From Devosia sp. Root413D1 (lineage in GTDB: Bacteria; Pseudomonadota; Alphaproteobacteria; Rhizobiales; Devosiaceae), in NCBI RefSeq assembly GCF_001425235.1, contig NZ_LMEA01000014.1:177195-232930 (forward strand): a DNA stretch of 55,736 nucleotides, given 5' to 3'. Shown here in pieces: positions 17,355 through 37,140 of this stretch. The position numbers and the translations under genes are program-made. Every line of letters begins with the position of its first letter. Within the stretch, counting starts at the first letter, position 1. The notes beneath the pieces are model-generated. The model was not told the origin of the DNA. It worked only from the letters and a program-made list of their open reading frames with translations, and did no database searches.

Positions 17355-18128
17355 CTACTGCGAGACGTCCTCGCCAAAGTACTTCTGAGAGATCGTCGCA
17401 TAGGTGCCATCGGCCTTGATCGCCGCGAGCGCCTCGTTGATGGCCGCCAGCAGCTCGGGCTTGCCCTTGGCCAGCAGCACACCGGAATAGTCGGCATTGG
17501 CCTGGGTAGCGGCGATCTTCACCGGCGCGTCGGGCTGTTGCTTCTTGAAATCGAAGAACGACAGGCTGTCATTGATGGTGGCGTCGGCGCGGCCCTGGAT
17601 CACCAGCGCGATCGACTGGTCGAACCCGTCGGTGGGCACGATCTCGGCGCCGCTGGCTTCGGCGAGCTTGCCGAAATTGGAGGTGGTGGTCTGCGCCGCC
17701 TTCTTGCCCTTCAGCGTCTCGAACGAGGTGATGTCGGCATTGTCGGCCTTGACGATCAGCGCCGCTTTCGAGGCGATGTAGGGCTCGGAGAAATCGTACT
17801 TCTCCTTGCGCGCGTCGGTGATGCCGACCTGGTTGATCACCACGTCATAGCGATTGGCATCGATGCCGGCGATCAGCCCATCCCAGGGGCCTTCGACGAA
17901 CTCGGCCTTCACCCCGATGCGCTTGGCGATCTCTTCGGCAATCTCGACGTCGAAGCCGACCAGCGCGCCCGAGGCATCGTGGAAGGTGAAGGGGGCATAG
18001 GTGCCCTCAGTGCCGACCCGCAGCGCGCCCGCAGTCTTGACCTGGTCGAGCGCCGTCTGGGCCAGCGCCGGGGTCGAAAGGCCAAGGCCGACAAGGCCGA
18101 TCGCCAGCACGGACTTGAGGATGTTCAT
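17355..18128 (-). CDS. Polar amino-acid ABC transporter substrate-binding protein
   Basis: 257-residue periplasmic binding protein. A signal peptide (residues 1-23) ends at ALAQ. The mature domain begins VKTAGALRVGTEGTYAPF and continues with FEGPW-like and QVGITDARKEKYDFSEPYI segments typical of family 3 solute-binding proteins for polar amino acids. A very good ribosome site (GGAGAAG) precedes the ATG. First gene of the operon; the hairpin downstream would favour its higher expression. Ligand not resolved; the YDFSEPY region fits glutamine, histidine, cystine or similar binders. Confidence 0.93.
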   Translation of the reverse strand: MNILKSVLAIGLVGLGLSTPALAQTALDQVKTAGALRVGTEGTYAPFTFHDASGALVGFDVEIAEEIAKRIGVKAEFVEGPWDGLIAGIDANRYDVVINQVGITDARKEKYDFSEPYIASKAALIVKADNADITSFETLKGKKAAQTTTSNFGKLAEASGAEIVPTDGFDQSIALVIQGRADATINDSLSFFDFKKQQPDAPVKIAATQANADYSGVLLAKGKPELLAAINEALAAIKADGTYATISQKYFGEDVSQ

Positions 18129-18866: not shown

Positions 18867-20147
18867 TTGGCGTCGCTGTTGCCGGCACGAGTGCTGAACA
18901 TGCTTGAGCTGTTGCGGGCCAAGTCGGCAACTGCCGATCTCGCGGCCCGGCTGCGCCCGTCGCCTGGGGCCGGGCGGCCGAAGCGGCTGCGCATGCATCA
19001 GAGCAGCGATCGCGCATCGGCCGAGGCAGTGTGGTCGCACCTCATCGAGGCGGGGGTGCCCGCCTCATCGAAAGACCGGCTGGCCGACGCGGGAAGCCTC
19101 GCGGCGGCCGAAACTTATGGCCGCAATATCGAGAATTTTGTCGGCACGGTAAAAGTGCCGGTGGGGGTGATCGGGCCGCTCAGGGTCAACGGCGTCCATG
19201 CCAGCGGCGACTATTACGTGCCGCTGGCGACCACCGAGGCGGCGCTGGTCGCCTCCTACGGTCGCGGCGCCGATATCGTGTCGCTGGCCGGCGGGGTGAG
19301 CGCAGGCATGCTGGGCGAGGGCGTGCTGCGCACCCCGGCGTTCGTGTTCAGCGGGCTTTACGAATGCGGCGCGTTCATCAGCTGGATCGCTGAGAATGCC
19401 GAGCAGTTGCGGAGCGTGGCCGAGGCGACGACGCGGCATGGCAAGCTGCAATCGCTCGAGCCGTTCATGGACAGCGACACGGTGTTCGTGATCTGCCGCT
19501 ACTCGACCGGCGACGCGGCCGGGCAGAACATGGTGACCGTCGCGACCGAGGCGATCTGCGCCTATATCGCTGCGCATTCGCCGATCCGCCCGCGCTTCTC
19601 GTTCATCGAGGGCAATTTCTCGGGCGACAAGAAAGCTTCGTATCTGGGGATGTTTGCGGGTCGCGGGCGAAAAGTCTCGGCCAGCGTCGAGCTGCCCTAC
19701 GAGCTGATGGCGCGTACCCTCCGCGTGACGCCCGAGGCGCTGGTCGCCTATGGGCGGGTGGCGGCTTTGGGCGCGGTGCTGAGCGGCCAGCTCGGCTCGC
19801 AGGCCCATTACGCCAATGGGCTCGCCGCCTTCTACATCGCCACCGGGCAGGATGCGGCCTGCGTGTCGGAATCGGCGGTCGGCTTCACCCGCATGGAGCC
19901 GCGCGACAAGGGCATGTTCTTTTCGGTGACGCTGCCCAATGTGCTGGTCGGCTCGGTCGGCGGCGGCACCGGGCTGCCCAGCCAGTCGGCGGCGCTCGAT
20001 TTGCTGGGGCTGGCCGGACCAGGCAAGGCCGCGGCTCTGGCCGAAGTGGTGGCGGCGCTATGCCTCTGCGGCGAGATCTCGATCATCGCGGCGATTGCCG
20101 GCGGGCAGTTCACCCGGGCACATCACAAGCTGGCGCGGCTCAGATGA
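18867..20147 (+). CDS. HMG-CoA reductase homologue (class I-like)
   Basis: About 426 residues. The hydroxymethylglutaryl-CoA reductase fold is recognisable from ENFVGTVKVPVGVIGPL, CRYSTGDAAGQNMVT, GQDAACVSES and GGGTGLPSQSAALDLLG. All four catalytic residues are present in context: Glu124 (TTEAAL), Lys255 (GDKKAS), Asp329 (GQDAA) and His419/420 (RAHH). The motifs favour class I over the class II type usual in bacteria. It would make mevalonate from HMG-CoA with NADPH, or reduce a related acyl-CoA. No other mevalonate-pathway gene is nearby. The start is uncertain: TTG at 18867 has GGGGG five bases upstream; ATG at 18900 has no ribosome site. First gene of a seven-gene operon; its stop overlaps the UbiA ATG. 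Confidence 0.9.
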   Translation: MASLLPARVLNMLELLRAKSATADLAARLRPSPGAGRPKRLRMHQSSDRASAEAVWSHLIEAGVPASSKDRLADAGSLAAAETYGRNIENFVGTVKVPVGVIGPLRVNGVHASGDYYVPLATTEAALVASYGRGADIVSLAGGVSAGMLGEGVLRTPAFVFSGLYECGAFISWIAENAEQLRSVAEATTRHGKLQSLEPFMDSDTVFVICRYSTGDAAGQNMVTVATEAICAYIAAHSPIRPRFSFIEGNFSGDKKASYLGMFAGRGRKVSASVELPYELMARTLRVTPEALVAYGRVAALGAVLSGQLGSQAHYANGLAAFYIATGQDAACVSESAVGFTRMEPRDKGMFFSVTLPNVLVGSVGGGTGLPSQSAALDLLGLAGPGKAAALAEVVAALCLCGEISIIAAIAGGQFTRAHHKLARLR

Positions 20148-21070
20148 GCACCACCGCCGAGGCTCAGTTGAGCCTGATGCAGCGACTCTGGATCTACCAG
20201 GCCGAGCGCTTCCCGCTTGGCAAGACCGCCGTGCTGCTCGCCGTGTTCACCGCCGCTGGCCTCAGCCTCTCGGCGCATCTTGGCGGGCGGCCCCTGCCGT
20301 CGATCTGGGTGTTCGTCGCGGTGTGGCTGGTGGCGATCGGCATTCTGTTCCAGCTGCGGGTCGCCGACGAGTTCAAGGATTTTGACGACGATAGCCGCTA
20401 CCGTCCGGAGCGGCCGGTGCCGCGCGGGCTGGTGAGCCTCAAACTGCTGCGGCGCCTGGGGCTCGGAGCCGGCGGGCTCGCCATCGTCCTTAGCCTGAGC
20501 ATCTCGCCGCTGTTGCTGCTGCCTTTGGCGCTGGTCTGGCTGTGGCTGGGGCTGATGACGGCGGAGTTCTTCGTGCCGGCCTGGCTGAAGGCGCGGCCGC
20601 TGCTCTACCTTGTCTCGCACATGGCCATCATGGCCTTCATCGATTTTTACGTCACCGCCGCCGAGTGGCTGCCGCACGCGGCGCTGCCGCCGCCGGGGAT
20701 CTGGATCTTCGTCATCCTGAGCTGCGTCAATGGGTGCGTCCTGGAGTTCGGCCGGAAGACCTGGGCGCCCGAGAGCGAGCGGCCGGGAGTCGAGACCTAT
20801 TCGGCGCTCTATGGCCCGGGGCGCTCGGCCGCCATCTGGGCCGGCTGCTGCGCCCTCTCCTATATCCTCGTCGGTTGCATCGGCACGCTGGCGGGCGCCG
20901 GCATAATTATCTGGGTCCTGGGCCTCGCGGCGCTGCTGCCGATCCTGTGGCTGGCCGGCCGGTTCATGCGGCAGCCGGACGTGGCGGGGCAGAAGCGGAT
21001 CGATCTCGCTGCGGGGCTCTGGGTATTTGCCTGCTACGTCATGGTGGGGTTGGCGGGGCCGCTGTCGTGA
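20144..21070 (+). CDS. UbiA-family prenyltransferase
   Basis: 308-residue membrane protein with about eight or nine helices. The aspartate-rich prenyl-diphosphate site is at about residues 75-100 (ADEFKDFDDD, then RPERPVPRGLVS), a pattern typical of UbiA enzymes. A second region around 195-215 (NGCVLEFGRKTWAPESE) corresponds to the second polar motif. It would attach a prenyl chain to an acceptor in the membrane. Overlaps the HMG-CoA reductase stop (ATGA) and the next gene (GTGA). Acceptor and chain length unknown; not obviously a ubiquinone, heme or chlorophyll enzyme given its neighbours. Confidence 0.88.
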   Translation: MSTTAEAQLSLMQRLWIYQAERFPLGKTAVLLAVFTAAGLSLSAHLGGRPLPSIWVFVAVWLVAIGILFQLRVADEFKDFDDDSRYRPERPVPRGLVSLKLLRRLGLGAGGLAIVLSLSISPLLLLPLALVWLWLGLMTAEFFVPAWLKARPLLYLVSHMAIMAFIDFYVTAAEWLPHAALPPPGIWIFVILSCVNGCVLEFGRKTWAPESERPGVETYSALYGPGRSAAIWAGCCALSYILVGCIGTLAGAGIIIWVLGLAALLPILWLAGRFMRQPDVAGQKRIDLAAGLWVFACYVMVGLAGPLS

Positions 21071-23520
21071 CCAGCTTCATCCATGACATGCGGAGCGCCG
21101 CAGGGGCTGATGTTGTCGGCGGCAAGGGCGCGACGCTGATGCGGCTCGCGGGGCTGGGGTTCGACGTGCCGGCCTTTGTCGTGGTCGAGGCGGCGGCCTT
21201 CACGTCGGCCGCTGCCGAGGCGGCAACCGGCGCGGCGCTGCTGGTGCAACTTACGGGCATCGGCCCCGGGCCCTATGCGGTGCGCTCGTCAGCGCGCGAA
21301 GAGGATGGCAGCGCCGCCTCGCATGCCGGGCAGTTCCTGTCGCTGCTGAATGTCAGGGCAGAGGACGTCCCCGCGGCCGCGCGAAGTGTGTTCGAGAGCG
21401 GCGCGGCCGAAAGCGTCGCCGAATATCGCAGCTCGCGCCAGCTCGGCGCCGATGGCGGCGCCCCGGCCGTGGTGGTGCAGCAGATGGTCGATGCGCGCTG
21501 CGCCGGCGTGCTGTTCACCGCCGATCCGGTCAGCGGCCGCCGCGACCGCATCGTCGTCTCGGCCATAGCCGGGCTCGCCGATCGGCTGGTCGGCGGCGAG
21601 GAAGATGGCGAGCGCTACGTGCTGGGCAAAACCAGCGGCGAGGTGCTGGAGCGGCCGGCGGAGGCGAGCCTGACCGACAGCGATCTCGCAGCGCTCCGGG
21701 CCCTGGCGTTCAGCGCCGAGGCGGCGTTCGGCGCGCCACAGGATATGGAATGGGCCTTTGCCGGCCAGCGGCTGCACCTCTTACAGGCGCGGCCGATCAC
21801 CACCAGCCTCCGGCCGGCGCCGATCGCCGACGAGGTGCTGGTGGTGCTCGACAATTCCAATATCGTCGAGAGCTATCCCGGGCTCGTTTCGCCGCTCACC
21901 TTCAGCTTTGCCCAATATGCTTATGCGCGGGTCTATCGGGCCTTCATGCGGCTGGTGGGGATCGACGCCGCGACGATCGGCAGCCATGCGGCTTTGTTCG
22001 ACAACCTGCTGAGCCGGGTCGATGCCCGGGTCTACTACAACCTCGGCAACTGGTACCGGGCGCTGGCGCTGCTGCCGGGGTTTTCAAGCAACAGCGCCAG
22101 CATGGAACTGATGATGGGGGTGAGCGAGCCGCTGCCGGCGGAGCTGGTTGCCGCCATGGCAGCGCCGCCGCAATCGCGGTTCCGCCGCACCCTCGGCATG
22201 GCGCGCATCGGCCTGGCGCTGGCCGGCGCGAGCCTCAGGCTGGGCCGCACCAAGCGGGGATTTTACGCACGACTGGGGGCAGCCCTGGCCGAGCCGGCGA
22301 CGACGCTGGACTATAAGCCGCTGACGGCGCTCGCCGCCGAGTATCGGCGGATCGAGGCCGACCTGCTCGACCGCTGGGACGCGCCGCTGGTCAACGATTT
22401 CCTCTGCATGATCGCCTTCGGCGGCTCGCGGAAGCTGATGCAGGGCTGGGCCGGCGAGGCCGGGCTCGCCGTGCATTCGGACATCATGATCGGGCAGGGC
22501 GATATCGTCTCGGCCGAGCCGGCGCAGCGCATCCGCGCGATGGGGAAGCTGCTGGGCGATGATCCGGAACTGGTGGCCGAGCTCGAGGCCGGGCAGGGCG
22601 AAGGGCTTGCACGCAACCCGGCGCTGCAGCAGGCAGTGCGCGACTATCTCGACCGCTTCGCCGATCGCTGCCCGGAGGAGCTGAAGCTCGAGAGCGTGAC
22701 GCTCGATCGCGATCCGTCGCCGCTCTACAAGGCAATCGCCGCTGCCGCGGCGGCCGGCCCGGGGCATGCCGTCGAGCGGGTCGACCCGGTGGCGGCGCTC
22801 GACCGCCTGTTCAAGGGGCACCCGCTGCGGCGCGCCATTGCCGGGGTGGTGCTGGGGATCGCCAAGCGCCGGGTGCGGGATCGCGAGAACCTGCGGTTCG
22901 AGCGGACCCGCATCTTCGGGCGCGGGCGGCGGCTGTTCCGGGCCGTCGGCGTGCAGTTCCATGCGCTCGGCCTGCTCGATACACCCGACGACGTGTTCAT
23001 GCTCACCGTTGCCGAAGTGCTGGGGGCGATCGAGGGCTTTGCTGTGAGCCATGATCTTGCGGCGCTCGCCCGCTTGCGGCGCGCCGAGATGGCGGCGGCC
23101 GCGACGCGCCGCGATCCGCCGGAGCGGCTCAGCCTCAAGGGCGCCGTCGCCACCGTCGGCAGTGCCATCGCACCGCTGGCGCCGCGGGCCCGGGACGAGG
23201 CGCGCGAGCGGAGTGGCGTCGGCTGCAGTGCGGGCGTCGTCCGCGCAGTGGCGCGGGTGATCGCGGATCCGCGCACCGGGACGCTGAAGCGCGGCGAGAT
23301 CCTCGTGGCGCGGCACACCGATCCGGGCTGGATCGCGCTGTTCACCAATGCCGCGGCGATCGTCGTCGAGCGGGGCAGCCCGCTGTCGCACTCGGCCATC
23401 GTGGCGCGCGAACTGGGCATTCCCTGCGTCGTGGCGCTGAAGGGCGCCATGGAGTGGATCGCCGACGGGGAAATGATCGAAGTGGATGGCGCAACGGGCC
23501 AGGTCCGGAGGGTCAAATGA
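21067..23520 (+). CDS. PEP-synthase / rifampin-phosphotransferase-like enzyme
   Basis: 817 residues. An N-terminal ATP-grasp domain (about 1-255, with GGKGATL, YAVRSSAREEDG and the terminal LLQARPIT) is joined to a variable middle part (about 265-700) and a C-terminal swivelling domain. Phospho-carrier His775 lies in SPLSHSAIVARELGIP. No PEP/pyruvate TIM barrel is evident after the His domain, so it resembles rifampin phosphotransferase and other ATP-to-small-molecule phosphotransferases more than true PEP synthase. In those enzymes the middle domain binds the acceptor. DNSNIVESYPGLVSPLTFSF opens the middle part. The GTG start overlaps the UbiA stop. Likely phosphorylates a pathway intermediate (inference). 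Confidence 0.85.
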   Translation: MTSFIHDMRSAAGADVVGGKGATLMRLAGLGFDVPAFVVVEAAAFTSAAAEAATGAALLVQLTGIGPGPYAVRSSAREEDGSAASHAGQFLSLLNVRAEDVPAAARSVFESGAAESVAEYRSSRQLGADGGAPAVVVQQMVDARCAGVLFTADPVSGRRDRIVVSAIAGLADRLVGGEEDGERYVLGKTSGEVLERPAEASLTDSDLAALRALAFSAEAAFGAPQDMEWAFAGQRLHLLQARPITTSLRPAPIADEVLVVLDNSNIVESYPGLVSPLTFSFAQYAYARVYRAFMRLVGIDAATIGSHAALFDNLLSRVDARVYYNLGNWYRALALLPGFSSNSASMELMMGVSEPLPAELVAAMAAPPQSRFRRTLGMARIGLALAGASLRLGRTKRGFYARLGAALAEPATTLDYKPLTALAAEYRRIEADLLDRWDAPLVNDFLCMIAFGGSRKLMQGWAGEAGLAVHSDIMIGQGDIVSAEPAQRIRAMGKLLGDDPELVAELEAGQGEGLARNPALQQAVRDYLDRFADRCPEELKLESVTLDRDPSPLYKAIAAAAAAGPGHAVERVDPVAALDRLFKGHPLRRAIAGVVLGIAKRRVRDRENLRFERTRIFGRGRRLFRAVGVQFHALGLLDTPDDVFMLTVAEVLGAIEGFAVSHDLAALARLRRAEMAAAATRRDPPERLSLKGAVATVGSAIAPLAPRARDEARERSGVGCSAGVVRAVARVIADPRTGTLKRGEILVARHTDPGWIALFTNAAAIVVERGSPLSHSAIVARELGIPCVVALKGAMEWIADGEMIEVDGATGQVRRVK

Positions 23521-24614
23521 ACGGCGCCGAGATTTCGAGCCACGCGCGCTTCGATGACATTCGCTATGCGCAGCTGTGGGAAGATGCCGATGTGCTGAAC
23601 GCGGCGCTCGGGCAGCAGCACGGCAAGGTGCTGGTCTCGATCTGCTCGGCCGGCGACAACGCGCTCGGCATGCTGCTGCTCGACCCGGCCAAGGTCATCA
23701 CCATCGATCTCTCGCCGGCGCAGGTCGCCTGCCTGAAGCTGCGGGTCGCGGCTTATCGGGCGCTCGATCACCAGGGCTTTGTCGAACTGATGGGCTCGCG
23801 GCCCTCCGAGCGCCGTGGCGAACTGTTCGACATGGCCGCCGTGGGTCTTCCCGCGGAGCTTGCAGCCTTCTGGGGCGCGCGGCGCGAGGCCGTAGTGGCG
23901 TATGGGCTGGGCGGCGTCGGCAAGTTCGAACGTTATTTCCGCATCCTCAGGCAATGCCTGCTGCCGCTGGTGCATAGCCGGGCGACGATCGACGAGGTGT
24001 TCGTGTCGAAGCCGCTCGCGGCACGGGCCGAGTTCCTCGATCGGCGCTGGAACAACTGGCGCTGGAACCTGTTGCTGAAGCTGTTCTTTTCGAATTTCGT
24101 CATGGGGCGGCTCGGGCGCGATCCGGCGTTTTTCCAGCATGTCGAGGGCAGCCTTGCCGAGCATGTCGCGGGCCGGCTCCGGCATGCGGCGGTCGATCTC
24201 GACCCCTCGCAGAACCCGTATCTGCACTGGATCCTCAAGCCGGGACACGGCGCAGCGCTGCCGCTGGCCTGGCGGGCCGAGCATTACGACACCATCCGCA
24301 CCCGGCTCGACCGGCTCGATATCCGCGAGGGGGCGCTCGAAACGCTGGTCGAGAGCGGCGAGACGGCCGATGGTTTCAACCTCTCCGATATCTTCGAATA
24401 TATGAGCCCCGAGGTGTTCGAGACCGTCTATGGCGCGATCCTCGCCGCCGCCAATCCCGGGGCGCGGCTGGTCTACTGGAACATGATGGTGCCGCGCCGC
24501 GTACCGGCCGCGCATGCTCACCGCGTAGCCCGGCTCGAGCCGGAGATCGCTGCCGGCAAGGCGGCGGACAAGGCGTTCTTTTATTCCGATTTCGTGGTCG
24601 AGGCGGTGAAGTGA
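23517..24614 (+). CDS. DUF3419 / BtaA-like 3-amino-3-carboxypropyl transferase
   Basis: 365 residues of the DUF3419 family, whose known member BtaA moves the 3-amino-3-carboxypropyl group of S-adenosylmethionine to diacylglycerol. Family signatures: IRYAQLWEDADVLNAAL at the N-terminus, the SAM-binding SICSAGDNALGMLL near residue 41, and IDLSPAQVACLKLRVAA. NLSDIFEYMSPEVFE near residue 290 is the second conserved block. No BtaB-type N-methyltransferase is nearby, so a full betaine lipid is not indicated; the acceptor may be a prenylated or other lipid. The ATG overlaps the previous stop (ATGA). Confidence 0.85.
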   Translation: MNGAEISSHARFDDIRYAQLWEDADVLNAALGQQHGKVLVSICSAGDNALGMLLLDPAKVITIDLSPAQVACLKLRVAAYRALDHQGFVELMGSRPSERRGELFDMAAVGLPAELAAFWGARREAVVAYGLGGVGKFERYFRILRQCLLPLVHSRATIDEVFVSKPLAARAEFLDRRWNNWRWNLLLKLFFSNFVMGRLGRDPAFFQHVEGSLAEHVAGRLRHAAVDLDPSQNPYLHWILKPGHGAALPLAWRAEHYDTIRTRLDRLDIREGALETLVESGETADGFNLSDIFEYMSPEVFETVYGAILAAANPGARLVYWNMMVPRRVPAAHAHRVARLEPEIAAGKAADKAFFYSDFVVEAVK

Positions 24615-25912
24615 GCCTCACCTGGCGCGACGGCATCTTCATCGCCGCGGTGATCGTCGGCATGCTGTCGCTGATGGGCGGCGTGCGTTATTTCGCCGGG
24701 CGCTACAGCATCGGGCCGGAAACCCAGCGCAAGCTCGTGCATGTGGCGACCGGCACCGCCGCCCTGTTCTTCCCGCTGCTGTTTTCGAATGCCCTGCCGG
24801 TGTTCCTCTTGATCGGCGCGGCTGTGATCCTGATGCTGGCGCTGCGCAGCCCCATGCTCGCCTCGGTCGGCGGGGTGCTGCATGAGGTGAAGCGCGAGTC
24901 GTGGGGCGAAATCTACCTGGCGCTGGCCATCGCCTTCACCTTCTTTCGCGGGCTGGGCGAGCCGATCCTCTACGTGCTGCCACTGCTGGTGATCACCCTC
25001 TCCGATACCGCGTCGGCGCTGGTCGGCACCGAGTATGGCAAGCGCCGCTTCGCGGTCGAGGACGGCTCCAAAAGCCTCGAGGGCGTGGCGGCGTTCTTCG
25101 TCGTCACCTGGCTGGTGGCGCTGGTGACCCTGCTGCTGCTCACCGATGCGCCGCGGCTCAACGTGGTGGTGCTGTCCTTCCTCGTTGCCGCCTTCTGCGC
25201 GCTGGTCGAGGCCGATTCCTGGCGCGGGCTCGATAACCTCTTCGTCCCCGTCGGCGCGCATCTCCTGCTGCAGCAATATCTTGCCAGCAGCTCCGCCGAA
25301 CTGGTGGTGGTGGCGGTCGGGTTCCTGTTGTTCCTCGGGCTGATGCTGCTGGTGGCCGAGGCGCTGCGCCTGCCGCCGCGCGCCGCGCGGGGCTATGCGA
25401 TCCTGCTCTTCCTGATGATCTCGCTGATGGCGCCGCATAATGCGCTGCTGACCGGGCTGGTGATCGTCGGCCAGGTATGGGCGCGCGCCAGGCGGCCTGG
25501 CACCAGCCAGCGGCCCGAGCTCGACCTCCTGGCGGTCGCCGCGGTGGTGGCGCTGTTCTGGCTCATCGCCGGCGAGCTCGCCGGGCGCTCGGTGCTTGCC
25601 CTGTTCAACCTCACCTTCGCCGCCGTGGCGCTCGGCTTTGCGGCGCTGGCGACGCGCGGCTGGTGGCGCCTGGTGTTGTTGCCGCTGGGCTTCGCGATCG
25701 GTGGGCTGTTCAGCTGGGTCGCCAAACTCAACACCCCATGGCACCCGCCCTGGTTCGATGCCGACTGGCCCTGGCTGGTCGCCGCGCTGGCGGTGCCGGC
25801 GGGGCTCGCCATGCTCCGGCCCGAGTGGTTCACCACGCGTCGCAGCGCCAAGCTGTTCGCCGTGGCGATGCTGGTGCCGCTGGTCTTCTATTTCAGGGGA
25901 ATGTTCCTATGA
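24611..25912 (+). CDS. Phytol/dolichol-kinase-like membrane protein with C-terminal extension
   Basis: 433 residues, almost all membrane-embedded. The N-terminal ~210 residues match the SEC59/VTE5 polyprenol or diacylglycerol kinase family: RKLVHVATGTAALFFPL near residue 38, TLSDTASALVGTEYGKRRF near 130, and GSKSLEGVAAFFVVTW. Such enzymes use CTP to phosphorylate an isoprenoid alcohol or lipid. The C-terminal half (about 230-433) adds several helices and a tryptophan-rich segment (WHPPWFDADWPW) not seen in simple members; its role is unknown. GTG start overlaps the DUF3419 stop; its own stop overlaps the next ATG. Confidence 0.83.
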   Translation: MSLTWRDGIFIAAVIVGMLSLMGGVRYFAGRYSIGPETQRKLVHVATGTAALFFPLLFSNALPVFLLIGAAVILMLALRSPMLASVGGVLHEVKRESWGEIYLALAIAFTFFRGLGEPILYVLPLLVITLSDTASALVGTEYGKRRFAVEDGSKSLEGVAAFFVVTWLVALVTLLLLTDAPRLNVVVLSFLVAAFCALVEADSWRGLDNLFVPVGAHLLLQQYLASSSAELVVVAVGFLLFLGLMLLVAEALRLPPRAARGYAILLFLMISLMAPHNALLTGLVIVGQVWARARRPGTSQRPELDLLAVAAVVALFWLIAGELAGRSVLALFNLTFAAVALGFAALATRGWWRLVLLPLGFAIGGLFSWVAKLNTPWHPPWFDADWPWLVAALAVPAGLAMLRPEWFTTRRSAKLFAVAMLVPLVFYFRGMFL

Positions 25913-26751
25913 CCACGCCGACGCCCATCACGCATCAGGATGCTACGGCGATGCTCTATCGCGATTCGCCGAGCTGGGATGGCAAGCGCACCGCCGCCAT
26001 TGGCGCGGTGGCCTTCGGCTCGCTCGAGGCGGGCGCCGAGCTGCTTTCGCGCGCCGCGGCCGAGCTCCACGCCGAGGGCTTCGAAGCGCTCATCGGCCCG
26101 ATGGATGGCGATACCTGGCACAAGTACCGGCTGGTGTCGGAGAGCGACGGCACGCCGCCCTTCGCGCTCGAGCCGCAGAGTGGCCCGCACGATCACGCTG
26201 CCTTCATCGCCGCCGGCTACGCGCCGATCTCCAGCTATGTCTCGTCGCGGGCCCGGCTCGTCGACACTATCGGCGACACCCCGGTCAGTATGGCCGGGGT
26301 AACCGTCACCGCCTGGGACGGCCAGGGCGCCGAGCTGCTGATCGGCAAGCTGTTCGATATGTCCGGCTCGGCCTTTGCCGGCAACCGCTTCTTCAAGCCG
26401 ATCAGCCGCGAGGCCTTTCTCGAGCTCTACCGGCCGCTGCTGCCGCTGCTCGACCCGCGCCACATTCTCTTCGCTTATGGGCCGGGGGCGCAGTTAGTCG
26501 GCTTCCTGTTCGGCATGCCGGACCACGGGTCGGCCATCCCCACCGCCATCCTCAAGACCTATGCCAGCGGCCTGCGCGGCGTCGGGCACCTGTTGGCCGA
26601 CAGCTATCATCGGAGCGCCCTCGATCTCGGCTTTACCGAGGTGATCCATGCGCTGATGCACGAGGATAACGTCTCGCGCCAGCGCAGCGAGCGGCACAGC
26701 GCCAGCGTGTTCCGCCGCTATGCGCTGATGGGCCGCGACCTCGGCCCATGA
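25909..26751 (+). CDS. GNAT-like acyltransferase
   Basis: 280 residues, soluble. The C-terminal two thirds read like a GNAT fold: FALEPQSGPHDHAAFIAAGY, LLDPRHILFAYGPGAQLVGFLFG (beta 4-5), then LRGVGHLLADSYHRSALDLGF at the acyl-CoA-binding turn and MHEDNVSRQRSERHSA near the end. It could N-acylate the amino group installed by the DUF3419 enzyme (inference). It overlaps both neighbours by four bases. Similarity is by fold pattern only, so the acyltransferase call is moderate. Confidence 0.65.
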   Translation: MTTPTPITHQDATAMLYRDSPSWDGKRTAAIGAVAFGSLEAGAELLSRAAAELHAEGFEALIGPMDGDTWHKYRLVSESDGTPPFALEPQSGPHDHAAFIAAGYAPISSYVSSRARLVDTIGDTPVSMAGVTVTAWDGQGAELLIGKLFDMSGSAFAGNRFFKPISREAFLELYRPLLPLLDPRHILFAYGPGAQLVGFLFGMPDHGSAIPTAILKTYASGLRGVGHLLADSYHRSALDLGFTEVIHALMHEDNVSRQRSERHSASVFRRYALMGRDLGP

Positions 26752-28157
26752 ACCTGATCGCCGGCTTTCTCGACAAAGCCGCTGAGCTCGGCCCGCGACC
26801 GGCGATCATCACCGGCGCCGGCGAGACGATCAGCTATGAGCAACTGGCGCTGAGGAGCGGACGGCTTGCCGCTTCGCTGCGGGGGCAGGGGGTGCAACGC
26901 GGCGATCGGGTGCTGGTGGCGCTGCCGATCGGCATCGAGCTCTATCTCGCCATCGCGGCACTGTGGCGGCTGGGCGCGACGATCGTCTTTCCCGAGCCGG
27001 CAATGGGGTTTGCCGGGGTGCAGCGCGCCGTGGAGATTGCCGCGCCCGCGGCGGTGCTGGTCGGCGGGGTCTATCGGCTGCTGCCCTACTTGGTGCCGCA
27101 GCTCTGGGGCACCAGGCGGCTGCAGTTCGGCTATGCCGAGGGCGACCCGCTCGAGGAGCTGGCACCGGAACACCCGGCGCTGATCTCCTTTACTTCCGGT
27201 TCGACCGGCCGGCCGAAGGGGATCGTCCGGAGCCACGGCTTTCTCGCGGCGCAGAACGCCGCGCTCCACGATCTCATCGCGCCGCGCCGCGACGACGAAA
27301 CCGATCTCGTCGCCTTTCCGGTGTTCGTCATCGCCAACCTGTCGCTCGGCACCACCTCGGTGCTGCCGAACTGGCGGCTCAGCCGCCATGACGAGGCCGG
27401 CGGCGCCGCGCTGCTGCGCCACCTCGCAGCGCACCGCGTTACCCGCGCCATGGTGCCGCCAGTGATCGCCGAACGGGTGGCCGATAGCGGCGAAGCGGCG
27501 GCGCTCGACGTGCTGTTTACCGGTGGCGGGCCGGTATTCCCCGATCTGCTCAAGCGCCTGTCACAGGTGCTGCCGCGCACCGATATCGTCGCCGTCTACG
27601 GCTCGACCGAAGCCGAGCCGATCGCCCATCTGCACGTGCGCGACATCACTGCCGACCAATGGCAGCAGATGGAGGAGGGGGGCGGGATTCTCGCCGGCAA
27701 GCCGGTGCCTGCAGTGGCGCTCGAGATCGTCGACGACGAGATCGTGGTCAGCGGCGCGCATGTGAATAAGGGCTATATGGACGGCATCGGCGACGCCGAG
27801 AACAAGCTTTGGCGAGATGGCGAAATCTGGCACCGCACCGGCGACGCCGGCCGCCTCGACGCAGATGGCAACCTCTGGCTCCGCGGCCGCCTCTCGGCCG
27901 CTGCCGCGGGGCACTACCCGTTCGAAGTCGAGACCGTCGCCCGCCAATGGCCCGGCGTCCGCCGCGCGGCGTTGGTGCCCGGCACCGAGCCGATGGTGAT
28001 CGCGCTCGAAGGCGAGGAACTCGGCCCGCAGCAGTGGACCGAGCTGGCGCAGCGGGCGTTCGGGGCACGAGCGGTGAAGGTGGCAATGCCACTCGATCGG
28101 CGGCATCACTCGAAGGTGGATTATGTGAGGTTGGCGAAGCTGGTGGGGCGGGGGTGA
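26748..28157 (+). CDS. AMP-forming acid-CoA ligase / acyl-adenylate enzyme
   Basis: 469 residues of the ANL superfamily. The nucleotide-binding loop FTSGSTGRPKGIVRSH is at about residue 148, YGSTEAEP near 285, HRTGDAGRLDADGNLWLRGR near 364, and the C-terminal catalytic lysine is Lys456 in HHSKVDY. It is shorter than typical acyl-CoA synthetases. The FPVFVIANLSLGTTSVLP segment recalls OleC-type beta-lactone synthetases, a tentative impression. It would activate a carboxylate, possibly one made in the pathway, as acyl-AMP. Last gene of the operon; ATG overlaps the previous stop. Confidence 0.85.
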   Translation: MNLIAGFLDKAAELGPRPAIITGAGETISYEQLALRSGRLAASLRGQGVQRGDRVLVALPIGIELYLAIAALWRLGATIVFPEPAMGFAGVQRAVEIAAPAAVLVGGVYRLLPYLVPQLWGTRRLQFGYAEGDPLEELAPEHPALISFTSGSTGRPKGIVRSHGFLAAQNAALHDLIAPRRDDETDLVAFPVFVIANLSLGTTSVLPNWRLSRHDEAGGAALLRHLAAHRVTRAMVPPVIAERVADSGEAAALDVLFTGGGPVFPDLLKRLSQVLPRTDIVAVYGSTEAEPIAHLHVRDITADQWQQMEEGGGILAGKPVPAVALEIVDDEIVVSGAHVNKGYMDGIGDAENKLWRDGEIWHRTGDAGRLDADGNLWLRGRLSAAAAGHYPFEVETVARQWPGVRRAALVPGTEPMVIALEGEELGPQQWTELAQRAFGARAVKVAMPLDRRHHSKVDYVRLAKLVGRG

Positions 28158-28175: not shown

Positions 28176-28541
28176 CTACCCCCCGAGGCGGCGAAACACC
28201 TCTGATATCGCGATCGACGTATATGGTTTTGGGATAAATGCCCCGTCCGGCAGTGCCGAAGGCGCTGGGCGGCCCTTGCCGGAGGTGACGATGATCTTGA
28301 TCGGTGGCCAGCGGTGCCGCACCGCCGCGGCGAGCGCCAGCCCATCCATGGTGCCCGGCATGTCGACATCGGTGAACAGCAGGCGGATCTCAGGGTTGGC
28401 CTCCAGTGCGCGCAGCGCCTCGGCGGCGTTGCGGGCCTCCACAACGTCAAAGCCCTGATCCCGCAGCTCGTCGGCGATGGAGTAGAGCAGCAGCGCTTCG
28501 TCCTCGACCACCAACACGGTGGTATTGTGCATCGTCGTCAT
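28176..28541 (-). CDS. Single-domain response regulator (receiver only)
   Basis: 121 residues, a lone receiver with acidic pocket VVEDEALLL, phospho-acceptor Asp58 (FTDVDMPGTMDG) and conserved lysine in IPKPY. No output domain. This is the usual partner of HWE-family kinases in Hyphomicrobiales. Its ATG overlaps the kinase stop by four bases (ATGA). The longer frame upstream only re-reads kinase sequence in another frame and is rejected as start. It converges with the isoprenoid/lipid operon, whose stop is 18 bases away. Confidence 0.9.
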   Translation of the reverse strand: MTTMHNTTVLVVEDEALLLYSIADELRDQGFDVVEARNAAEALRALEANPEIRLLFTDVDMPGTMDGLALAAAVRHRWPPIKIIVTSGKGRPAPSALPDGAFIPKPYTSIAISEVFRRLGG

Positions 28542-31216
28542 GGGGCAGCTCCCGCATCGGGTGGTTCGAGCGGTGCGCTCAACGTCACGGTCAGACCCTC
28601 GGGGGCGTAGGCCACGTCGACCTCTCCACCAAAATCCGAGGCCAGCACCCGCTTGATCAGCAGGGAGCCGAAGCCGCGCCGGGTCGGCGGGGCCACGGGC
28701 GGGCCACCCGTCTCTCGCCACGTCCAGGTGAGGGTTCGCTCGCCGCGCTCGTCTCTTTCCACTGACCAGTCGATCGATACGCGGCCGGTTTCGTTGGAAA
28801 GCGCGCCATATTTCAGCGCATTGGTACCGAGCTCGTTCACCGCCAGCGCCATCGACAGCGCCATCTTGGGCGACAGGGCAAAGCTGGGGCCGCCGATCGT
28901 GATGCGCTCCGATGGCAGGTGGGCGGTTGCCGCCGCGATGACGGCCTGCATCGGTGCATCCGTCCAGTTCCGCCCGAGCAGCGCATCATGGGCAGTGCCC
29001 AAGGCGCCGAGGCGCTGGATCAGCGCTTCCTTGCCGGCTTCGAGCGTGGTGTCGCGCAGCGTCTGGGTGGCCAGCGCCGACACCATGGCGAGCATGTTCT
29101 TGATCCGGTGCGACAGCTCGTGCGTCAGCATTTCCTGGCGCGAGCGGGCTTCCTTCTGCTCGGTGATATCCTGCACCACGCCGAACATGGTCAGTGGCTT
29201 GCCTGTCTCGTCATGGATGAACTCCATGTGGCGGCTGAGCCAGCGCAGCTCGCCGGTGTCCGGCCGGCGGATGCGGTATTCGACATTGGGCGTCGCGGTT
29301 CCCGAGCGGCGCGTCTCGTCGTTGGAGCGGACATCCTTGTCTTCGGGCACGACGATGCTTTCGAACAGGCTGACATGCGCCTTGTCGCGCGGTTCGAGGC
29401 CCCACAGCTCCCAGAACTTTTCCGAGCCCTGGATGGTGCCCGTCGCGATATCGACCTCGAGCGAGGCGATGCCGGCGGCGTGCTGGCTCAGCCGGAAGCG
29501 CTGTTCGCTGCGGCGCAGCTGTTCTTCGATGCGGCGGCGCTCGGTGACGTCGATCACCACGCCGATGGCACGCCCCGAACTCACGGTCGAACCCGGCTTC
29601 AGCTGCGAGCGGATCAGCAGCCACTTCTCGGTGCCATCGGGCCAGACATGCTTCAACTCGACCTCGAGATCGAGATCGCCGCGCGCCACGGCGGCGGCGC
29701 TGATCGCCGCCACCCGCTCGGCCTCGCCGGGGGCGTAACGCGACTGATATTCGGCCAGCGTCGGGGTGGCCTCCTCGGGGAAACCATAGAGCCGGTTGAG
29801 GGCCGGTGACGGGGTGATCTGCAGGGCGTCGATATCGAGCTCCCAGATCGCCAGCTGGCCGGCCTCGATGGCGAGCCGCAACCGCGCCTCGCTCTCGGCC
29901 AGCCGGGTGAGCGTCGCCTTCTCGTCATCGATATCGGTATTGGTGCCGATCCACTTGCTGATCTCGCCCCTGGCGTTGCGCAGCGGCACGGCCCGCGCCA
30001 AGAACCAGCGATAGCTGCCATCGGCGCCGCGCACCCGGAACTGCACCTCGTACGGGGTGCCGACCCGGAGCGCTGCGGCCCAACGCTTGCCGGCCTCGGG
30101 CAGATCGTCGGGGTGGATGATGCTGGTCCAGTTGTCGCCGTCGAGCTCGCCTTCGTTGCGGCCGCTATAGCGGTAGACGCCGGAGTTGAACCAGTCGAGC
30201 TTGCCGTCGGGCCGGGCGCTCCAGACATGGTTGGGCATGGCCTCGGCGAACACCCGGAACTGCGCTTCGGCTTCGCGCTGCCGGGCATCGGCGCGCAGCA
30301 GCCGGAAGGTGCCCCAGGCGATCAGCACCAAAGCAACGAGCGCCGGGATCACCAGCGCCAGCACGCCCCAGGTCGCCGCCCAGTAGGAGGCGAAGGCATT
30401 GTCGCTGCTGACCGAAGCCAGCGCGATGAGGTTGGTGCCGGGGACGCGGCGATAGCCGACAACGCGGTGCACGCCATCGGTGGGGGAGACCGCGTCATAG
30501 CTGCCGCTCGGCGCCTGCGGCAGATAGGTGGTGAAGAGGATGTACTGGCTGAGATCCTGCGGTCCGGGCGGCAGCGGGTAGCGCGAGACCAGCTGCCCGT
30601 CTTCGCGCAGCAGCCCCACGGTCGATTGCCCGTCGAGATGCAGCGACTGCCAGACCTCCTCGAGCAGTTCGGAGTTGAACGAGATGATGGCGGCGCCGGC
30701 AAACTGGCCGTTGCGCTCGATGCGCTTGCTGATGGTGAAGATCTGCTCGCTGTTGAGCCGGCTGACCAGCAGTGCCGAGACGTGGAACGGCTCGCCGGCG
30801 GCGACCGCGGCGAAATACTCCCGGTCGCGCACATCGATCGGCTTGAACTGCTCGTCGGTGGTGAGGCTGGTGGCGCCGGCGGCATCGACCACATAGATCC
30901 TGGGCTGGCCGGGCAGAGTGGAGATCGCCTCCTTGAGCTGCGCAGCCGCACCTGGTGGCGGTGCCGAGATGTCGGCCCCGAGCGTATCGTCGACCCTGAG
31001 CAGCGTCTGGCGCGCCGTCTCGAAGGCCCATTTGGCGTTGGCCGCCACCACCTGCGAGGACGAGCCCGCATCATCATGCACGGCCCGCCTTGTATCGAAA
31101 TAGCTCGAGGTCAGTAGGTAAGCGGTGCCCCCGATCAGCATCAGCAGCAAAGCCAGGATCGCCCCGACGGCCACAACATGTGGACGCAGCTTCATCGAAG
31201 CCGGACGGTCTGCCAT
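28538..31216 (-). CDS. HWE-family sensor histidine kinase with Cache and PAS domains
   Basis: 892 residues. A membrane helix (about 13-33), a periplasmic Cache-like sensor (about 40-285) and a second helix (about 288-310) precede three PAS/PAC domains (about 325-435, 450-560 and 570-690). The kinase core is HWE type: phospho-acceptor His699 in HELSHRIKNMLAMVSA, the asparagine box ALAVNELGTNALKYGALS, and the WRETGGPPV strand that carries the W-E signature. It passes phosphate to the receiver encoded directly downstream. Signal unknown; a periplasmic small molecule is likely from the Cache domain. Confidence 0.92.
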   Translation of the reverse strand: MADRPASMKLRPHVVAVGAILALLLMLIGGTAYLLTSSYFDTRRAVHDDAGSSSQVVAANAKWAFETARQTLLRVDDTLGADISAPPPGAAAQLKEAISTLPGQPRIYVVDAAGATSLTTDEQFKPIDVRDREYFAAVAAGEPFHVSALLVSRLNSEQIFTISKRIERNGQFAGAAIISFNSELLEEVWQSLHLDGQSTVGLLREDGQLVSRYPLPPGPQDLSQYILFTTYLPQAPSGSYDAVSPTDGVHRVVGYRRVPGTNLIALASVSSDNAFASYWAATWGVLALVIPALVALVLIAWGTFRLLRADARQREAEAQFRVFAEAMPNHVWSARPDGKLDWFNSGVYRYSGRNEGELDGDNWTSIIHPDDLPEAGKRWAAALRVGTPYEVQFRVRGADGSYRWFLARAVPLRNARGEISKWIGTNTDIDDEKATLTRLAESEARLRLAIEAGQLAIWELDIDALQITPSPALNRLYGFPEEATPTLAEYQSRYAPGEAERVAAISAAAVARGDLDLEVELKHVWPDGTEKWLLIRSQLKPGSTVSSGRAIGVVIDVTERRRIEEQLRRSEQRFRLSQHAAGIASLEVDIATGTIQGSEKFWELWGLEPRDKAHVSLFESIVVPEDKDVRSNDETRRSGTATPNVEYRIRRPDTGELRWLSRHMEFIHDETGKPLTMFGVVQDITEQKEARSRQEMLTHELSHRIKNMLAMVSALATQTLRDTTLEAGKEALIQRLGALGTAHDALLGRNWTDAPMQAVIAAATAHLPSERITIGGPSFALSPKMALSMALAVNELGTNALKYGALSNETGRVSIDWSVERDERGERTLTWTWRETGGPPVAPPTRRGFGSLLIKRVLASDFGGEVDVAYAPEGLTVTLSAPLEPPDAGAAP

Positions 31217-34569: not shown

Positions 34570-34860
34570 GGGGTTCTCCGATGTTGACGAGGTAGTTCGC
34601 GCCGCACGAGCTTGCGGGGCGTTCAGGGGGGCGCGGCAGCGGTGAAGATCATCCGAGCGAGCATCGATCGGCGGTCAGCCGGCGTGATCGACGTCCGGGA
34701 GAGTTTCGCCGGCCGCCAGTTGCCGAACTGCCGCGGCCGATCGAGATCGACATCGCGATACCGGCCGGATAAGAGCGCACGCACCCTGCGATGGTCGATG
34801 AACTGATGGCGCTGTGGTGTTTGCCGAGCGGTGCCGAGCCGCAATCAACCAGAGGATAGT
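34570..34860. other. Intergenic region upstream of the Kelch-glycosyltransferase gene
   Basis: 291 bases between divergent genes. No convincing frame or hairpin. It marks the change from phage late genes to lower-GC cargo genes and should hold the cargo promoter. Confidence 0.4.
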
Positions 34861-37140
34861 ATGGCCCGGGTCTCCGCGTGGCTGAAGAAGCCTGAGCATT
34901 GGGCGCGCCGAGCTGAAGCCTGGTGGCTCAGGCGAAGGGCGCTGCGGGATGGGCTGGAATGGAAAAATGGCGCGCCGTGCCCCGAACCGCTGTTGGATGC
35001 CGGCGGTGCTCAGATCGGCAATTTGCTTTACGTTGCATGCGGCTACAAATCCCCGAACGCGGCGAACGAAGCGATCTTCGTGTTCGATATGCAGAGGGAA
35101 CGCTGGGTTGGCCGCATAGCGACGCCTTCAGGGCTGGCGCATTCTCACTGTGCGGTCGCTTCCGACGGGCATCGCTACATCTACTTCGCGTCTGGACAGC
35201 TCGGGCCCCAATGCCGGCCAGCGGTTCCGAGTGTCTTTTCGTATGATACCCGCGAAAATCGGTGGCACGAGTTGCCGCCAGTTCCGGCCTCTCGATACGC
35301 TGCTGCAATGCAGTACTGGCGCGGACGCTTGCACCTCGTCGGAGGTGCAGACGAGGACCGCTGGACAGCAAGGGCCGACCATTGGAGCCTTGCCGTGTCG
35401 GGCGGGCGAACTGATGAGGCGGGCTGGCGGGCCGAGCAGCCGATCCCTGTTGCCGGAATGCACGGATCGAGCGCTGTGCTGGGCGACAGTCTCTACGTGT
35501 TCGGCGGCCAGCAGGGCGATTTCCAGGCGATTCCAGGCGATCCGGACTGCACCTGTACGGGGCGCACGCCGGAGACCTATCTGTCCTCCGCCTTCCGCCT
35601 GTCCGATCCTTCGGGCCCGTGGACCAGAGTTGCAGACCTTCCCATCGCAGTATCCCATGCCGACTTCTCGACCATAGTCGTCGATGGCCGGATTCTGTTG
35701 ATCGGCGGGCAGGTCTATAAAGACCCGGAGCAATTTTACCTGAGGCTGACCGACGCAATACAAGCCTACGATCCGCTGGCGGATCGCTGGTCAATGTTCG
35801 GCTACCTGCCGCACAAGCTCAAGATTCCGGTCGTCGGCCGGCTCGGCGATCGGCTGTTCGTCGTCGCTGGTCAACGCGGCGCCCTGCCGGACGGCGACCG
35901 GCCGGGTGAAATCACCCGCGAAATGTTGACGACGACTCTGCCGGCCTCACCAGCGGCGCGGGTGCGTGAAGGCGCCGGTTTCGCCGGCAGGAAGATACTG
36001 CTGGTTTCGCATGATCTGTCCCGCAGCGGAGCGCCGCTCCTGCTGCTGGAAACGGCTCAGGCCCTCATGGAGAGCGGCGCCACCGTCCGCCTCGCGACCG
36101 CATCAGATGACGTGAGGGGCTGGAACCTGGCGTCCCAGTTCGGCATACCCCTGATCCCGATCGAAAGCGCCATCGCCGTCGCGGCGGCTTCCGACGCCAT
36201 TATCGCCAATACAGCGAGCGATCCAACCGCAGCCTGGGTGCGTAAGTGCCTCGCTGCAAATCCATTTCTGGCGCAGCGCCTGGTCTGGTGGGTGCATGAA
36301 ATCGACATCGAGAATTTCAAGCAGGCGGCCGATCTGCTTCAGCTGGCGGCGCTTGCGATTTTCGACAGCAACGCGGCGCGTGCCGCCTGGCAGGAAGCCG
36401 TAGCGTTGCCGCCAAAGGTTCGCGTCATGCATCCGCCGCTGAGCGATGACTTCGTGGAGACGGCAAGTCGCGCATCGCTGCCCTTTCCGATGAAGCCGCA
36501 GACCCGTACGCAACGTCCGGTGGAACTCGCGCGTGACGACATCCGCCGACGACTTGGCGTGTCGAAGGATGATTTTCTTCTGCTCTCCCTGGGTAGCTTG
36601 GAGCCCGGGAAAGGGCAACGGATGCTCATCCGGACGATTGCGAGGCTGGCAGCGGAGAGCGGGCTTCCGATCAGGCTGCTGCTTGTGGGCCTGAACCGCT
36701 CCGACCGTGCGGCACTTCTCGAGGACCTGACCTCGGACGAGAAAGCCGTCCTGTCGCCAGCCAGAACCTACCTGCGGCAGTCGGCATTTGCTTCGTTTTA
36801 CCTCGCCAGCGACGCTTTCATCATGAACTCGCAGGGAGCGACAAAAGGCAGAGGGGAAACCTTTGGCCGCGTGACGACAGAGGCCATGGCCTTCGGGCTC
36901 CCGGTGCTGGGCACCTCGGCCGGCGGCACTGCGGAAATCATTGTCGACGGGGTCACCGGTTATCAATACCCGACGGGGGAGGACGGGCAGGCCGTGCTGC
37001 AGCGGCAGGTGGAAATTCTGGTGCGAGACCGATTGCTCGCCAATCGGCTCGGGCAGGCAGGGCGCCAGAGTGCCCTCGCTCGATTCCAGCAGGGCAAGCA
37101 CCTGAGTGATCTGGCCGAGGCGCTCGAGCTGATCTGGTAA
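34861..37140 (+). CDS. Kelch-repeat beta-propeller fused to GT4 glycosyltransferase
   Basis: 759 residues. The N-terminal half (about 30-360) contains at least five Kelch-type blades, each with a paired glycine and tryptophan pattern such as RYAAAMQYWRGRLHLVGG, GSSAVLGDSLYVFGGQ and GRLGDRLFVVAGQ. The C-terminal half (about 375-759) is a GT-B glycosyltransferase of family 4, with GRKILLVSHDLSRSGAPLLL at its start and the nucleotide-sugar E-x7-E motif at Glu666 and Glu674 (ETFGRVTTEAMAFG). No signal peptide. ATG at 34861 is chosen because AGAGGA precedes it. GC content is visibly lower than the flanking host genes. It probably alters cell-surface glycan, as in lysogenic conversion (inference). 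Confidence 0.85.
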   Translation: MARVSAWLKKPEHWARRAEAWWLRRRALRDGLEWKNGAPCPEPLLDAGGAQIGNLLYVACGYKSPNAANEAIFVFDMQRERWVGRIATPSGLAHSHCAVASDGHRYIYFASGQLGPQCRPAVPSVFSYDTRENRWHELPPVPASRYAAAMQYWRGRLHLVGGADEDRWTARADHWSLAVSGGRTDEAGWRAEQPIPVAGMHGSSAVLGDSLYVFGGQQGDFQAIPGDPDCTCTGRTPETYLSSAFRLSDPSGPWTRVADLPIAVSHADFSTIVVDGRILLIGGQVYKDPEQFYLRLTDAIQAYDPLADRWSMFGYLPHKLKIPVVGRLGDRLFVVAGQRGALPDGDRPGEITREMLTTTLPASPAARVREGAGFAGRKILLVSHDLSRSGAPLLLLETAQALMESGATVRLATASDDVRGWNLASQFGIPLIPIESAIAVAAASDAIIANTASDPTAAWVRKCLAANPFLAQRLVWWVHEIDIENFKQAADLLQLAALAIFDSNAARAAWQEAVALPPKVRVMHPPLSDDFVETASRASLPFPMKPQTRTQRPVELARDDIRRRLGVSKDDFLLLSLGSLEPGKGQRMLIRTIARLAAESGLPIRLLLVGLNRSDRAALLEDLTSDEKAVLSPARTYLRQSAFASFYLASDAFIMNSQGATKGRGETFGRVTTEAMAFGLPVLGTSAGGTAEIIVDGVTGYQYPTGEDGQAVLQRQVEILVRDRLLANRLGQAGRQSALARFQQGKHLSDLAEALELIW

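Follow-up and report, generated by a model that had tools for sequence, protein, structure and literature searches.

The closest described relatives of the system reported here come from several branches of isoprenoid and lipid metabolism. Class I 3-hydroxy-3-methylglutaryl-CoA (HMG-CoA) reductases (HMGR, EC 1.1.1.34) use a catalytic glutamate, lysine, aspartate and histidine and carry a cis-loop DKK, with Lys735 bridging the terminal carboxylate of HMG (PMC9500038). Polyprenol kinases carry the CTP motif DxxAxxxGxxxGx8KKTxEG (PMC5853391), BtaA and BtaB act together in betaine lipid synthesis, and PF13444 is named as the domain of OlsB-type aminolipid N-acyltransferases in PMC11631085. Here we describe a seven-gene operon in a 55,736-nucleotide stretch of Devosia sp. 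Root413D1 (contig NZ_LMEA01000014.1, positions 177,195 to 232,930 of the forward strand; hereafter the window) that brings an altered HMGR homologue together with six further enzymes. The enzymes are of known families and the pathway appears new; a preliminary description made from the sequence alone knew of no pathway with this gene set, and we likewise found none in the open-licence PMC papers searched, a scope outside which lie subscription papers and preprints, so that it may be in print elsewhere. We judge the chances about even that this is a dedicated biosynthetic operon for one membrane-associated amphiphile, in which the HMGR homologue would act as a reductase of a substrate other than HMG. 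The alternatives weighed below overlap with this explanation and the weights given to them need not add up to a whole.

A seven-gene operon inherited as a unit

Genes 1 to 7 run head to tail on the + strand (18867-28157), and reading the sequence directly bore out the earlier claim that each overlaps the next by four bases, all six junctions being exactly of that length (Table 1). The TTG start of gene 1 is backed by the aligned N-termini of four relatives (L016, L036, L037 and L039). When named bacterial genomes were scanned with an alignment of gene 4, at least 508 stretches encoding a relative of it were returned, which need not all be operons, and the locus counts below rest on the best 80 of these. 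All seven genes were complete, in the same order and on one strand, in 73 of the 80 loci, the other seven being unbroken gene runs that end at a contig edge. The preliminary description had proposed comparing gene order among relatives, and order is conserved both here and in five further families of the order, so the objection it foresaw, a set without conserved order, fails. Four-base overlaps lead into gene 2 in 64/75 loci, gene 3 in 55/80 (five of these 80 lack an upstream gene to measure), gene 5 in 74/78 and gene 6 in 66/78, while the overlap into gene 4 is 14, 4 or 8 bases in 65/80 and that into gene 7 is most often 8 bases; these counts lean upward, as the script preferred, wherever available, a start codon that yields 4 bases of overlap. 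Conserved order and recurring short overlaps establish an operon, not a chance arrangement. Pairwise distance matrices of the seven genes correlate at r 0.83-0.95 (computed on the window and on the 61 of the 80 loci in which every one of the seven is full-length); as common descent by itself produces high correlation, the result says no more than that the genes are passed on together. The seven genes are one operon, inherited as a unit.

The distribution of the operon is patchy. Carriers among the 80 loci include Ruegeria, Roseovarius, Yoonia, Sulfitobacter, Shimia, Paracoccus, Bosea, Rhizobium, Chelativorans, Dongia, Devosia and two Halomonas; roseobacters make up many of the loci and several carriers are marine. 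Within the genus of the window gene 1 was matched in 2/19 genomes and within its family gene 5 was matched in 8/136, the window's own genome being included in both counts. Within the family, genomes G007, G107, G049, G092 and G080 show this gene order, the last with broken frames, and two more family genomes (G026, G021) hold copies cut by contig ends. Across the order gene 1 was matched in 13/397 genomes. Besides the window's own, these are seven with weak or partial matches and five with identities of 58-67%. The latter five, one genome from each of the five further families, all show the gene order of the operon; in one of them the frames are broken and in another a contig end truncates gene 1. 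The copies in G080 and G492 are spread over several frames and that in G406 is, like those in G021 and G026, cut by contig ends; the proteins of G026 and G406, cut gene 1 included, were translated as they stand. Three of the five order contigs are also among the 80 loci, and 8 of the 80 lie on the same contigs as genomes from the genus, family and order searches. The seeming frameshift in gene 3 of the nearest relative (L016, from G007) is due to a stretch of N in that assembly.

Wider draws gave no further carrier, either among 384 other genomes of the class (best gene 1 match 39% identity) or among 397 other genomes of the phylum at a limit of 1e-20 (best 56%). The phylum draw contained eight genomes of one genus with gene 1 identities of 50-56%, which group with named Vibrio records; gene 4 was searched in five of these eight and none was found. 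DUF3419, the family of gene 4, was matched in the window's own genome only among 18 genomes, and the viral contigs searched gave no match. The two Halomonas copies have their closest counterparts, among the loci compared, in Chelativorans, which points to transfer, and in Roseinatronobacter sp. S2 the operon genes lie on a plasmid, with gene 1 at the record start and genes 2-7 annotated as UbiA family, PEP/pyruvate-binding, DUF3419, hypothetical, hypothetical and AMP-binding protein. A link to an Alteromonas plasmid set (thermostable-hemolysin annotation, AMP-binding, HMGR) was rejected, only gene 1 of the seven being matched there at 1e-4. Fifteen loci with other HMGR homologues held, besides gene 1, only weak partial matches (gene 7 in L167, gene 3 in L169).

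The substrate pocket of the HMG-CoA-reductase-like protein

Residues were counted in 72 operon sequences (71 loci and the window), copies of 400 amino acids or fewer or with stops having been dropped, and human HMGR numbering was mapped via alignments and the human sequence. The equivalents of Glu559, Arg590, Asp690, Lys691, Lys692, Asn755, Asp767 and His866 are kept in 72/72 copies, the catalytic ones in the window being E124 (E559), K255 (K691), D329 (D767) and H419 (H866). Lys735 is replaced by alanine (Ala299 in the window) and the pocket residue Ser684 by glutamate (Glu248), again in every one of the 72. Outside the operon, 9 of 32 homologues, some of them near-duplicates, have Lys735 and all 9 also have Ser684; the other 23 are without the lysine and five of them have the serine. 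Against the NCBIfam equivalog TIGR00533 gene 1 scores 310 bits, below the cut-off of 441.8. Gene 1 is like class I HMGR in family, catalytic residues and cis-loop, and unlike it in the two pocket positions, in forming its own clade and in residing in a genome without an HMG-CoA synthase match.

A 49-row tree, which included 17 of the 72 operon sequences, places these in one clade (95/96) that is sister to ten Vibrio-group proteins (100/98), with nine lysine-bearing proteins on the far side (100/100); the tree program flagged long branches L047 and L048, and also L042 and L043 near the operon-Vibrio group. No operon gene was found in the surroundings of the Vibrio-group proteins L003 and L004, nor, except for a weak gene 3 match, in those of L155, L156, L168 and L169. 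As a separate observation, the lysine for the substrate carboxylate is lost in the Vibrio-group homologues L003, L004 and L049-L056 too.

HMG-CoA synthase (PF01154) had 0 matches in the window's own genome, in a search whose controls matched in 7/14 cases, 6 of them above the cut-off, and IspG of the methylerythritol phosphate (MEP) pathway is present. Taken with the lost carboxylate lysine this makes mevalonate an unlikely product. Gene 1 probably does not make mevalonate and probably reduces another thioester, and the glutamate in place of Ser684 at most suggests that the tail of the substrate is not an acid. HMG-CoA could arise from leucine catabolism, and gene 1 might in principle draw on this source, mevalonate or a derivative being a building block of the operon's compound. 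Membership of the HMGR Pfam family and the retained catalytic residues would fit such a role; we nevertheless find it unlikely in view of both pocket changes in all copies, the score under the TIGR00533 cut-off, the missing synthase match and the fact that none of the seven proteins matched a mevalonate-pathway kinase model in Pfam. A remnant of the mevalonate pathway was set aside as the leading explanation because the lysine is lost and no HMG-CoA synthase was matched.

With regard to the MEP pathway itself, DXR type I (PF02670) gave no match in the window's own genome though IspG is present; DXR type II would be the likely reason (PMC3847144).

The six companion enzymes and a candidate route

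The enzyme labels of the preliminary description largely stand: UbiA, DUF3419 (BtaA-like) and AMP ligase by Pfam, GNAT by fold, phytol/dolichol-kinase-like by motif, and PEP (phosphoenolpyruvate)-synthase-like by the domains PPDK_N and PEP-utilizers. For gene 1 the HMGR family holds and an ordinary HMGR does not, given the lysine lost in all copies. Genes 5 and 6 had no Pfam match above the gathering score, gene 5 being assigned by its CTP-kinase motif and gene 6 by its fold.

Two of the proteins are membrane enzymes. Gene 2 matches the UbiA domain PF01040 at 52.1 bits, above the Pfam cut-off of 34.2, and its motifs R..DE..D...D and E..RK are each present in 74/74 copies. A relaxed form of the polyprenol-kinase CTP motif occurs in 70/78 copies of gene 5, with a near variant in the other eight, the window protein included, and 0/20000 shuffles of the window protein match it. 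The motif departs from the published one in the spacing before K, in the first K and in a Thr to Ser change. The predicted structure of gene 5 (pLDDT 91) has an extra C-terminal helical region, and fold comparison with VIA was weak, its top rows including unrelated pyrophosphatases. Gene 5 resembles polyprenol, phytol and dolichol kinases (Sec59, VTE5) in a close form of DxxAxxxGxxxG...K(S/T)xEG, an RK..H clamp and a multi-helix membrane architecture, and differs from them in the motif details, the C-terminal region and the absence of a Pfam match.

Gene 3 combines an ATP-binding domain (PPDK_N) with a phospho-His mobile domain (PEP-utilizers), and its catalytic-His motif is found in 74/75 copies. 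It scores 615 bits against NF004881, below the cut-off of 883, and lies below the curated cut-offs of all 25 NCBIfam models shown; because it also lacks a Pfam match to the PEP/pyruvate-binding C-terminal domain, it is not a PEP synthase. With PEP synthase, rifampicin phosphotransferase and PigC/RedH it shares the ATP-binding and phospho-His domains, whereas its middle region is its own.

Gene 4 is about 24% identical to the DUF3419 protein of a DUF3419-methyltransferase (BtaA-BtaB-like) pair at L151, with which it shares Y.Q.WED.D and the region of the S-adenosylmethionine (SAM) site. Like BtaA it belongs to DUF3419 and conserves the SAM-site region; unlike BtaA it sits in a different operon without a methyltransferase partner, none of the seven proteins matching a BtaB-like methyltransferase in Pfam, where the L151 pair has one. 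These likenesses, together with the DUF3419 score of 186 bits, raise the question as to whether the locus is a variant betaine- or homoserine-lipid operon, in which gene 4 would act as BtaA does, transferring a 3-amino-3-carboxypropyl group to diacylglycerol or a comparable alcohol, with the backbone built or trimmed by the remaining genes. The low identity and the missing BtaB speak against it, and to our knowledge no betaine-lipid route needs six further enzymes; we consider it quite unlikely. A betaine-lipid operon was rejected as the leading explanation for want of BtaB.

The predicted structure of gene 6 gave 235 PDB matches at E<=0.001 in Foldseek, led by known GNATs, the best being glucosamine N-acetyltransferase 5kf2 (E 1.3e-10), and it is nearest to two-domain GNATs. 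N-acyl transfer of the kind carried out by OlsB-type enzymes is expected of it, but unlike them it has no match to PF13444 and its fold matches other GNATs. Sequence searches for solved relatives of genes 4, 5 and 6 gave no meaningful match. Gene 7 is nearest to PRK09274/OleC-type models, with which it has the adenylation core in common, and falls below their curated cut-offs (NF006754, 263 bits against 478; the OleC beta-lactone synthetase model, 135.6 against 900); no other olefin-pathway gene is among the seven. P.D.RH..K, a tail that we take to resemble that of OleC-type ligases, is present in 72/72 copies and the P-loop pattern in 68/72. At what we assume to be the position of Asp235 in amino-acid-activating domains the alignment has a valine, which makes an acyl acid likelier than an alpha-amino acid as substrate.

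From the chemistry of these families we infer substrates, a product and a step order, the last being a guess. The AMP ligase would activate a carboxylic acid, perhaps a 3-hydroxy acid, as its thioester, which the gene 1 enzyme, its pocket no longer fitting HMG, would reduce to an alcohol. The alcohol may be phosphorylated, possibly to a diphosphate, by the prenol-kinase-like gene 5 (CTP) and the PEP-synthase-like gene 3 (ATP), and the UbiA protein would, within the membrane, attach a prenyl-type group to an acceptor. Gene 4, like BtaA, would add a 3-amino-3-carboxypropyl group from SAM and the GNAT would acylate, plausibly at the amine of that group; in those loci where a P450 and a sulfotransferase adjoin the operon, they may in turn oxidise and sulfate the product. 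A bolder version is that a relay from carboxylate to prenyl-type diphosphate (ligase, altered HMGR, CTP kinase, ATP phosphotransferase, UbiA) feeds into 3-amino-3-carboxypropyl lipids of a new class, made by roseobacters and other members of the Alphaproteobacteria, and that gene 1 stands for a family in its own right, sister to the Vibrio homologues, of four-electron reductases of acyl thioesters that annotation misnames HMG-CoA reductase; this we advance tentatively and hold to be rather unlikely.

Several points weigh against the amphiphile operon with a non-HMG reductase. The altered pocket could still accommodate HMG in another way, and the Vibrio sister group is without the lysine too. 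The second UbiA motif, E..RK in gene 2, is unlike what we take to be the usual Asp-rich form. The window's gene 5 carries a variant motif and not the exact one, lacks a Pfam match and has weak fold matches, none in Foldseek at E<=0.001. The domains of gene 3 could serve condensation and not phosphotransfer, as PigC/RedH models also match. In the family 128/136 genomes have no gene 5 match, and the product is then dispensable for most.

Flanking genes and implications

Upstream sequence of more than 3 kb was available in 69 of the 80 loci. A sulfotransferase and a P450, of which one each was scanned with Pfam, occur together beside the same 16/80 loci in tblastn (L085, L088, L091, L092, L100, L103, L105, L107, L110, L117, L118, L124, L125, L129, L141 and L145); by the position of the P450 the pair lies downstream in L091 and, in the other 15, upstream in divergent orientation. 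This association suggests a sulfated variant of the product. A second P450 type stands beside 5/80 loci, directly upstream on the same strand in L076-L079 and downstream in L140. Clustering of flanking proteins over 81 loci (the window and the 80) returned ABC ATPases of varied kinds and positions in 25 loci, P450s in 23 (16 of one type, six of the second including a fragment in L106, and one in L101) and the sulfotransferase in 14 (16 by tblastn); further clusters in 13, 10 and fewer loci were put down to chance or to reading frames antisense to those genes, as was checked for part of them. A conserved regulator or transporter beside the operon was rejected on the outcome of this clustering. 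The window's own flanking genes show no sign of belonging to the operon, and further along an open reading frame (ORF) combines Kelch repeats with a family 4 glycosyltransferase domain (Table 1). An anti-phage defence system was rejected, PADLOC models giving 0 families for all seven proteins at 1e-5.

Table 1. Genes and junctions of the operon and other genes of the window
Feature	Position	Strand	Basis or detail
Gene 1, HMG-CoA-reductase-like protein, 426 aa	18867..20147	+	TTG start; Pfam PF00368 HMG-CoA_red 355 bits
Gene 2, UbiA-type membrane prenyltransferase, 308 aa	20144..21070	+	Pfam PF01040, conserved motifs
Gene 3, PEP-synthase/rifampicin-phosphotransferase-like, 817 aa	21067..23520	+	PPDK_N 139 + PEP-utilizers 89 bits
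Gene 4, DUF3419 (BtaA-like) putative SAM:3-amino-3-carboxypropyl transferase, 365 aa	23517..24614	+	PF11899 186 bits
Gene 5, CTP-dependent polyprenol/phytol-kinase-like membrane protein, 433 aa	24611..25912	+	motif, model pLDDT 91
Gene 6, GNAT-fold acyltransferase-like protein, 280 aa	25909..26751	+	model pLDDT 92.9, Foldseek
Gene 7, AMP-forming acyl ligase, 469 aa	26748..28157	+	PF00501 AMP-binding 158 bits
Junction gene 1/2	20144-20147	+	ATGA
Junction gene 2/3	21067-21070	+	GTGA
Junction gene 3/4	23517-23520	+	ATGA
Junction gene 4/5	24611-24614	+	GTGA
Junction gene 5/6	25909-25912	+	ATGA
Junction gene 6/7	26748-26751	+	ATGA
ABC transporter binding protein (flank)	17355-18128	-	
PAS/HWE histidine kinase (flank)	28538-31216	-	
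Kelch-glycosyltransferase ORF	34831-37140	+	

The P450 and sulfotransferase beside some loci also bear on the nature of the product, as do the AMP ligase and GNAT within the operon, the patchy spread (8/136 family genomes), the Halomonas copies nearest Chelativorans and the plasmid copy, all of which would suit a soluble or secreted specialised metabolite (a signal, siderophore or antibiotic) instead of a membrane lipid. Genes 2 and 5 are however multi-pass membrane enzymes of lipid families, the Pfam scan reported no carrier-protein domain for the seven proteins and the flanks gave varied ABC ATPases without a specific transporter, and such a metabolite seems to us doubtful.

If the explanation as a membrane-associated amphiphile made with a non-HMG reductase is correct, bacteria would make a class of lipid or natural product that has so far escaped description. 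A recent review (PMC13001223) flags as needing study the lone HMGR genes that occur in Streptomyces alongside a complete MEP pathway, and the label of HMG-CoA reductase on homologues of gene 1 would, on the same condition, mislead surveys of isoprenoid pathways.

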